From: an uncultured Bacteroidales bacterium
Lineage (GTDB): Bacteria > Bacteroidota > Bacteroidia > Bacteroidales > Muribaculaceae
Length of the DNA stretch: 54,506 bases
NCBI GenBank assembly: GCA_949285735.1
Contig: CASEAQ010000013.1
Span: 1-54,506, forward strand
Direction: 5' to 3'
A program made the translations under genes and the position numbers. Below the pieces are notes generated by a model. The model searched no databases and had not been told where the DNA came from. It was given only the letters and a program-made list of their open reading frames with translations. Position 1 is the first letter of the stretch. Every line of letters starts with the position of its first letter. Of this stretch, positions 37,125 through 49,824 are shown piece after piece.

Positions 37125-37169
37125 GTATCCAGTCGTGGTTGTGGGGGAATGTGTGTCATGCCGTAGTAG

Positions 37170-37189
37170 AGACGCGATTTATCGCGTCT
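37170..37189. repeat. Short REP-like palindrome
   Basis: AGACGCGAT-TT-ATCGCGTCT, a perfect 9-bp palindrome, related to the one at 34033-34054. Confidence 0.55.
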
Positions 37190-37584: not shown

Positions 37585-37698
37585 GTTGGACCTCTTCGAG
37601 GCCCCTTAGGGGAGAGTGAGCTCGTTCCTACGGTTCCTTGCCCACTGCGTGGAGCTGCGTCACCGTAGGTTAAGCAAAGTTGGACGGCTTCGCCGCCC
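37585..37698 (+). repeat. Structured repeat, copy A (114 nt)
   Basis: Starts with hairpin GTTGGACCTC-TTC-GAGGCCC and ends with hairpin GTTGGACGGC-TTC-GCCGCCC. The central stem CCTACGG (37627-37633) pairs with CCGTAGG (37663-37669) and encloses the conserved core TTCCTTGCCC. A further small CCCC-TTA-GGGG hairpin is at 37602-37612. Related copies: B, C, D, and degenerate E. Confidence 0.75.
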
Positions 37699-37748
37699 TT
37701 ATGCTGGTTGTTTTTGTCACTTGGTGGTTGGCAACAGTGCGGTGGATG

Positions 37749-37854
37749 GGGTGTTGCAGAACTACAAAAATTGTAAAATCCAGTTTTGCAATATCATGAT
37801 TTTCAATTACTCTCTTTTTGATAGTATTGATAAAAATAGAGTTCTGCAACACCC
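37749..37854. mobile_element. 106-bp MITE-like element with 15-bp perfect terminal inverted repeats
   Basis: GGGTGTTGCAGAACT (37749-37763) is exactly complementary to 37840-37854. The interior is AT-rich and non-coding. It lies between repeat copies A and B. No clear target duplication was seen. Confidence 0.55.
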
Positions 37855-37923
37855 TCTGGCTACTGCCATCCTTATGCGCTCCGTTGGGCAAGAAGGTGCG
37901 TTTTAAGCGTGCTATGAAATATG

Positions 37924-38037
37924 GGGCGGCGGAGCCGTCCAACTATCTGTAACCGCAGGTGACGTAGCCCAACGCAGTGGGCAAGGAACCTGCGGACAAC
38001 CATCTCCCCCCCCCAAAGGGCCTCGGAGAGGTCCAAC
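37924..38037 (-). repeat. Structured repeat, copy B (114 nt)
   Basis: Same layout as copy A, on the complement. The central stem is CCTGCGG/CCGCAGG (37989-37995 with 37953-37959). Both terminal hairpins have loop TCC instead of TTC. A C-run of ten bases is in the variable part. The flank CTCCATTGCCATTCTTG is shared with copy C. Confidence 0.75.
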
Positions 38038-38107
38038 GAAGCTCCATTGCCATTCTTGCATGGAAAAAACACACACAGGCGGTTTTTAAGCCCTACCAAC
38101 GCGGTGT

Positions 38108-38190
38108 GTTGCACCTCTCCAAGGTGCTATATGTAGGGGGAGGCTTGCGCTCCACCAGTGTTACTGATAGTTGGGCGGCTTCGCCGCCCC
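38108..38190 (+). repeat. Structured repeat, degenerate copy E (83 nt)
   Basis: Opens with GTTGCACCTCTCCAAGGTGC and ends with GTTGGGCGGC-TTC-GCCGCCCC, keeping both terminal hairpins. It lacks the TTCCTTGCCC core and the central covarying stem. Confidence 0.5.
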
Positions 38191-49275: not shown

Positions 49276-49348
49276 CGTGAGTGAATGATAAAGGTGGGAT
49301 ATTCCTGGCTATTTCATTTAAAGTGCGATGACAGTATATGGGAACACG

Positions 49349-49465
49349 GGGCGGCGAAGCCGTCCAACCATGCGCTAACCGACGGCGACGCAGCCCAACG
49401 TAGTGGGCAAGGAACCGTCGGACATCACCACTGCCACCCAGTTCAGGGCCTCGAAGAGGTCCAAC
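49349..49465 (-). repeat. Structured repeat, copy C (117 nt)
   Basis: Terminal hairpins as in copy A. The central stem is CCGACGG/CCGTCGG (49379-49385 with 49415-49421). The inner loop has GCCC pairing with GGGC. Confidence 0.75.
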
Positions 49466-49550
49466 GGAGCTCCATTGCCATTCTTGTGTAAAGAACAACG
49501 TGCATATCCACCACATGCTAATACTATATTAAGCACTGACAAATCGGCAC

Positions 49551-49661
49551 GTTGGACCTCTTCGAGGCCCTACTGCGTGGGTAGCTTCGTTCCGAGGGTT
49601 CCTTGCCCTAAAGGGCTGCGTCACCACTCGGTTAAGGCATGGTTGGACGGCTTCGCCGCCC
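49551..49661 (+). repeat. Structured repeat, copy D (111 nt)
   Basis: Terminal hairpins as in copy A. The central stem CCGAG (49592-49596) pairs with CTCGG (49627-49631). The inner hairpin is reduced to GCCC-TAAA-GGGC (49605-49616). Confidence 0.75.
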
Positions 49662-49824
49662 TCTGTGCCGATTTATTCTGTAACGCACCGTCATCGCGCT
49701 TTAAATGAAGTAGCCGTGTGGGATATTCCTGGGGTGCAATTGTTAAAAAATGAATTTTGAAGTCGGGCTTCAAAGTGTTACAAAATTGTAATAATTATGT
49801 AAAACAATTGTGATTTTGTGGCGA

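Follow-up and report, generated by a model that had tools for sequence, protein, structure and literature searches.

Structured ~114-nt repeats of an uncultured Bacteroidales bacterium are probably the arms of small mobile DNA units around a Y1 transposase

The window, a stretch of 54,506 nucleotides from an uncultured Bacteroidales bacterium, carries four copies of a structured repeat. We conclude, with a probability of roughly 80%, that these repeats are the arms of small mobile DNA units that work like REP/REPIN elements around a Y1 transposase, TnpA, and the family was very probably spread by the single-strand DNA transposase that such arms bracket. In the organization that we propose, each ~114-nt copy would be one arm, or end, of a unit. 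The complete autonomous unit would consist of a minus arm, a tnpA gene encoding a 150-aa Y1 HUH transposase and a plus arm, and the common units would keep both ends with a short spacer instead of tnpA, as MITEs and REPINs do. Of the three candidates offered in a preliminary description of the window, two taken jointly describe the family best, a REP-type system and a hairpin-ended repeat mobilized in trans by a transposase; the third, a non-coding RNA, fits poorly.

The four copies of about 114 nt lie where the preliminary description had placed them: A at 37585..37698 on the plus strand (114.7 bits), B at 37924..38037 on the minus strand (121.7 bits), C at 49349..49465 on the minus strand (124.8 bits) and D at 49551..49661 on the plus strand (114.9 bits), these scores not being independent because all four copies are in the training set of the family covariance model. 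The two end-hairpin patterns, which it had also recorded, occur five and four times with up to three mismatches, against expectations of 0.04 and 0.00. Copy A is a full arm in which an inner hairpin, a central stem and an outer hairpin follow one another; its upstream minus partner was not found. Copy B, also a full arm, is the minus arm paired with a shortened and degenerate plus arm at 38108..38189 (45.7 bits), which lies outside the training set and has an end hairpin with one mismatch.

C is an L-type and D an R-type arm, as defined below. On the plus strand, C presents an outer hairpin with a GAA loop (GGGCGGC-GAA-GCCGTCC, 49349..49365), a TAACC motif at the 5' foot of the central stem (49376..49380) that is enriched at distant loci, the covarying central stem CCGACGG/CCGTCGG together with an inner GCCC/GGGC stem (49379..49421), and an inner hairpin, again with a GAA loop (GGGCCTC-GAA-GAGGTCC, 49446..49462); both hairpins are seen in the sequence and in the predicted folds. 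The spacer between the arms C and D (49466..49550) occupies the position of tnpA in the C56 and C33 transposase-bearing units, which lie outside the window in the organism's own assembly.

Several other repeats were seen in the window and at other family loci. Between A and B, a perfect 15-bp inverted repeat (37749-37763 and 37840-37854, GGGTGTTGCAGAACT and AGTTCTGCAACACCC) surrounds an AT-rich stretch and looks like a separate small MITE-like insertion. The palindrome GTAGAGACGCGATTTATCGCGTC at 37166-37188, with none expected by chance and similar ones flanking the own-genome loci C52 and C56, resembles GTAG REPs; neither Y1 gene found in the assembly is of the Y---NP type. Another palindromic repeat, AGAGCCGTGGCGTGCCGCGGCTC, lies near three family units (L005:1843-1865; L010:1184-1206, the same place as L014; L015:1243-1265), and a small array of outer hairpins, with three copies of TTGGACGGCTTCGCCGCCC, sits beside the C56 tnpA unit (L038:3748-4060).

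The compensatory changes previously described for the central stem largely hold, as A (CCTACGG/CCGTAGG), B (CCGCAGG/CCTGCGG), C (CCGACGG/CCGTCGG) and D (CCGAGGG/CC(A)CTCGG) all pair; the stem of D is not just 5 bp long, as had been reported, but full, with a bulged A. Further paired versions in the family include CCGACAG/CTGTCGG, CTGAGGG/CCCTCAG and CCGCCGG/CCGGCGG. Covariation was analysed on 58 full-length copies from 72 nhmmer hits in the own genome, 14 partial or weak hits being left out. In these copies 96.2% of the four-helix structure is paired. Changes on both sides affect 8 pairs and 39 cells, compared to means of 2.6 and 11.2 after shuffling of columns; none of 500 shuffles reached the observed percent paired, pairs, cells or extra pair types. 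Under a tree-aware null, in which the changes of each column were redistributed on a FastTree tree, the means were 3.3 pairs and 10.6 cells; pairs, cells and percent paired, three of the four measures, were again reached in 0/500 replicates, and extra pair types in 2/500. Both nulls support the selection for structure that had been thought likely. The covariation resides mainly in the central stem, and the end hairpins hardly vary. The two most variable pairs are broken in 11/58 and 13/58 copies, often with A-C; pairing in the central stem is favoured rather than absolute, because several copies have A-C there.

Read on one strand, the end hairpins have a G-T pair and loops of GAA or GGA; read on the other, they have an A-C mismatch and loops of TTC or TCC. 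Folding is more favourable for the GAA strand in 50/58 copies with DNA parameters and in 49/58 with RNA parameters, and as this holds for both sets, folding energy alone cannot separate DNA from RNA. In single-stranded DNA, GNA triloops are exceptionally stable, and the inverted layout of the arms, together with their position around a Y1 transposase gene, favours single-stranded DNA as the folding molecule. At the feet of the arm hairpins GT[AG]G is absent: one strand has GTTGGA there, and the opposite strand has TAAC(C), which precedes the central stem. The arm sequence GTTGGAC fits GTTRRRY, which we take to be the integron attC box, and an attC reading was considered.

A search of the own assembly (2.6 Mb, 80% complete) with copy A gave 68 BLAST matches, and the covariance model built from the 58 copies gave at least 112 matches at E ≤0.001, a figure that may be a lower bound because 150 of the 1199 first-look candidates were scored. 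Further copies occur in related genomes at E 1e-5 in 16/198 genomes of the bacterial family, of which eight, including the own genome, belong to the own genus, and the reach beyond the genus is weak. Sequence was fetched around the BLAST matches, and hits within 300 nt of one another were merged, giving 40 units with a best score of at least 40 bits. Twenty of them are simple minus-plus pairs and none is a simple plus-minus pair; 16 are single arms, and the remaining units have one each of the orders '+-+', '--+', '++++' and '---', the first being the neighbourhood of A and B in the window. Most units (35/40) overlap no ORF of 120 aa or longer.

Within a pair, the arms are separated by a spacer of 58-120 nt where the transposase-bearing units have tnpA. 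The two arms also differ in kind. According to the last bases of the inner flank, a rule of our own by which arms were typed L or R, 19 typed pairs comprise ten LR, eight RL and one LL, so that 18/19 hold one arm of each kind. The inner flank of the 5' arm of the C56 tnpA is L-type and that of its 3' arm is R-type, these arms themselves being within the compared set; at C3 of G005, just the 3' arm fits the rule. The simplest reading is that the small pairs are internal-deletion derivatives of the transposase-bearing unit.

The own assembly yielded two Y1_Tnp (PF01797) genes, each lying between a minus and a plus arm. Their products are ~150 aa long and 55% identical to each other, with the HUH motifs PDHLHIL and PDHIHIL and the tyrosine motifs YIKGQKEHH and YIARQKEHH. 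The arms of the C33 gene are diverged, at 55 and 45 bits. Across the genus, minus and plus arms bracket five of the seven stop-free tnpA genes (L067, L068, L070, L072 and L073), the other two, orthologous to each other (L069 and L071), adjoin an arm pair, and a broken tnpA copy in G001 also has arms beside it. The G005 copy at C10 (L071:1501-1953) reads PDHIRIL where its G001 ortholog reads PDHIHIL, so its HUH motif appears to be lost. Arm scores follow the TnpA type: the arms score 78-107 bits at the four loci whose TnpA shares 77-100% identity with the C56 protein and 44-55 bits at the three where it shares 50-57%, a relation that also holds within the two genomes that have both types. In G006, one of the two arms compared is nearer the type I arms, and the sole TnpA found is of type II.

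A strict coupling of copies to a detectable transposase in every genome is ruled out, as G002, G003, G007 and G008 have 19, 52, 32 and 37 model matches and no detectable Y1 gene, G002 and G003 being 99% complete. Such copies could reflect MAG assemblies broken at repeats, or the gene may once have been present and then lost. G004 (99% complete) yielded no copy and no Y1 gene at the thresholds applied.

The predicted TnpA model (pLDDT 90) finds its best PDB matches by E-value in the TnpA of ISDra2 (PDB 2xma, E 2.1e-9) and of IS608, with TnpAREP (PDB 4er8) at rank 30 (E 1.6e-5, rmsd 3.0). The two own TnpA proteins score 24.2 and 20 bits against NCBIfam REP_Tyr_transpos, below the cut-off of 80, and 47.5 (C56) and 58.1 bits (C33) against transpos_IS200, whose cut-off is 55.

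Similar brackets occur around more distant transposases. A profile scan of public genomes yielded 177 loci, the best 80 of which were analysed and to which the numbers in this paragraph refer. They come mainly from Bacteroidales MAGs, in addition to Pasteurellaceae, Oligosphaera, Verrucomicrobia and others. The Y---Q--HH signature is present in 79/80 relatives and the Y---NP motif in 0/80. Inverted repeats between the 350 bp on either side, scored above the 99th percentile of mismatched-locus controls, bracket 61/79 usable loci and 0/286 shifted windows, 18/79 relatives missing the threshold. When the strand that reads toward the gene is considered, 108/158 flanks contain TAACC, compared to 12.6% of controls, and triloop hairpins of at least 6 bp have GNA loops in 152 cases and TNC loops in 30 (6 and 8 in the control). 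TAACC followed by a stem occurs in 66 flanks (15 on the wrong strand, 8 in the control), and the strict tripartite pattern in 27/158 (2 on the wrong strand, 0/578 in the control). The correlation between arms and TnpA is weak (Mantel 0.15, 0/500 permutations), and the inverted repeats of L252 and L258 resemble hairpin clusters, not a tripartite arm. The same transposase branch is also met in the Pasteurellaceae loci L094, L103, L109, L110, L112, L113, L137 and L148, some with short bracketing inverted repeats; these members suggest horizontal transfer.

In a separate Bacteroidales sample of Y1 genes, taken from high in a score-ranked list, bracketing above the 99th percentile was found at 32/48 Y---Q--HH genes (missed by 16), 0/13 IS200-type Y---Q genes and 1/4 others; at the 95th percentile the numbers are 36/48, 5/13 and 1/4. 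Whole-genome searches, each with the genome's own arm, revealed matches away from tnpA in 4/4 distant genomes, full length or nearly so in two. Oligosphaera has 49 matches, one being the query arm, and in 44 of these 94 or more of the 129 nt are covered; four copies also occur there in a cluster on one strand. The Muribaculaceae genome RGIG4576 has seven, two beside tnpA and three others covering most of the arm. In Parabacteroides PM6-13, two of 12 matches are beside tnpA and ten cover only the first 57-59 of 99 nt; in Bacteroides sp. 214, five of ten lie on the tnpA contig near the gene and five cover 21-49 of 92 nt. Cross-matches between the four genomes were only two and weak, both of the Bacteroides arm in Parabacteroides.

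The C/D unit (49309..49717, ~410 bp between two direct repeats) is absent at all six orthologous regions compared at E 0.05 (G001, G003, G005, G006, G007 and G008), the flanking genes being on separate contigs in G002 and G004; in G007 the site is a short uninterrupted intergenic region. A search of plasmid and phage records at E 1e-5 gave no match to the unit. Other own-genome pairs align inside about 49306-49721, the outermost query positions being 907 and 1322; the C15 and C3 units, for example, do so at 85% over query 914-1320. The outer edges of the unit carry a terminal inverted repeat, GGCTATTTCATTTAAAGTGCGATGACAGT, at 49307..49335 on the plus strand, 90% complementary to its counterpart at 49687..49715 on the minus strand, and an exact 15-bp direct repeat, GTGGGATATTCCTGG, at 49294..49308 and 49718..49732, whose left copy overlaps the first two bases of GGCTATTTCATTTAAAGTGCGATGACAGT.

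These edges are what a MITE of a DDE-type transposon might show, mobilized by an unlinked transposase with target duplication, tnpA having been captured by chance. Y1 enzymes are not expected to make direct repeats such as this one, and the outer end TTTAAATGAAAGAGCCGTG is conserved in many family copies, which also suits a DDE element. We nevertheless regard this explanation as improbable. Direct repeats of at least 15 bp flank only 2/24 pairs (2/536 mismatched flank pairs), the second being of 16 bp and not abutting both ends, so the repeat is not a rule of the family and a general target-site duplication was not found. Moreover, five of the seven stop-free genus loci have a Y1 gene enclosed by an arm pair, arms of different sequence surround Y1 genes at many distant loci, and the inside of the arms is structured and covaries, for which a DDE end has no need.

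Selection for the host's benefit, as a family of structured non-coding RNAs or of transcription terminators, which we consider highly improbable, would explain the covarying stems, and according to Quentin et al. 2018 (PMC6006769) REP hairpins reportedly make mRNA more stable and terminate transcription. Among the 33 units that have an ORF on both sides and no overlap with a long one, 12 lie between convergent ORFs, as a terminator might; 14 are in tandem and 7 in divergent surroundings, so that a rule of gene orientation is not evident. The arms form inverted pairs whose strand bears no constant relation to that of the genes, their GNA loops follow the strand that reads toward tnpA, and the C/D unit is missing from the six orthologous loci, all of which argue against a host RNA. 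At gathering score, no Rfam family matches the copies, one tRNA being the sole match in the window; at E up to 1, the matches in L001 and L027, taken as chance, were MIR8742 (28.4 of 130 bits, 26.1 on the other strand), isrK (18.9 of 50) and Atu_C9 (16.8 of 40).

It is likewise very unlikely that the host has taken the transposase into its own service, in the way proposed for domesticated TnpAREP, with the units as chromosomal sites that are no longer mobile: the low tnpA copy number, the divergence of the two intragenomic copies and the degeneracy of some units would agree with this, whereas the six orthologous loci without the C/D unit and the many Oligosphaera copies that are 93-97% identical to the query arm speak against it.

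Returning to mobile units around a Y1 TnpA, we propose that a unit becomes single-stranded on the lagging-strand template, whereupon each arm would fold on the strand that reads inward into a GNA-loop hairpin, TAACC with the central stem and a second GNA-loop hairpin. By analogy with TnpAREP, which recognises a hairpin and GTAG, TnpA would recognise the arm shapes and the TAAC foot. Its tyrosine would cut beside the arms, and the unit would be joined into new, mostly intergenic sites, through which copies might multiply. If so, the arms provide a candidate substrate for the branch that makes up 48 of the 65 usable Y1 loci of the Bacteroidales sample, and they would help to explain one class of intergenic repeats of gut bacteria.

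Compared to REP/RAYT systems, BIMEs and REPINs, the family is alike in its numerous imperfect hairpin repeats, which lie mostly between genes and form inverted pairs, in a Y1 HUH gene flanked by cognate copies and in a short conserved motif at the hairpin foot. They differ in that the arms here are ~114 nt long with several hairpin parts, whereas a REP is one palindrome of 20-40 bp; the foot motif is TAACC instead of GT[AG]G, and the transposase is Y---Q--HH instead of the Y---NP of RAYT. There are also distinct L and R ends, and the ends of the C56 tnpA unit are those of the small units. With its TAAC(C) feet and its tyrosine motif, the family is no canonical GTAG REP served by a class 2 RAYT. 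A 2021 study shows that TnpAREP reads hairpins strand-specifically, with GTAG and bulges (PMC8266576).

IS200/IS605 (subclass 1.1) shares the Y---Q motif and, as far as the predicted model goes, the TnpA fold (ISDra2, 2xma). The ends of IS200/IS605 are not known to be inverted copies of each other, and bracketing inverted repeats were found at 0/13 IS200-type genes at the 99th percentile (5/13 at the 95th). Rather than several near-identical gene copies, two that are 55% identical were found here. TIRtrons, as described by Di Nocera et al. 2013 (PMC3733652), are Y1 genes between inverted repeats, sometimes multicopy, an arrangement that the present units share. The TIRYT examples are class 2 according to Quentin et al., 20/26 of them in subclass 2.1, with HTH domains (PMC6006769); the class 2 Y---NP motif is not found here, and the available descriptions of TIRtrons and TIRYT contain no TAACC/GNA arm.

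The closest match by signature is TnpA-Y1 subclass 1.2, which Quentin et al. give as Y---Q--HH, of low copy number, mainly in cyanobacteria and Bacteroidetes, with 'no' under REP and generally without typical IS200 terminal structures (PMC6006769). The tyrosine signature makes the present TnpA a candidate, not a proven, member. The likeness includes Y---Q--HH, a length of ~150 aa, low copy number and relatives (best 80 of 177) mainly in Bacteroidales; yet its table says 'no' for REP, and 61/79 usable relatives here (best 80 of 177) are bracketed. The W motif tabulated there is WQ, whereas G or A follows W in 30/39 proteins showing the pattern (G 21, A 9, S 4, E 4, V 1 and no pattern in 22, among 61 relatives scored), so that WQ is not the usual motif. 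Among the open-access titles and abstract beginnings found in searches, none indicated REP-like arms for the Y---Q--HH branch. We see about even chances that this branch has its own widespread tripartite single-stranded substrate, inverted at both ends of the gene, with a tnpA unit and deletion derivatives that share distinct left and right ends. It would then be a third kind of Y1 system, placed between IS200 transposons and REP/RAYT systems and possibly linking the two.
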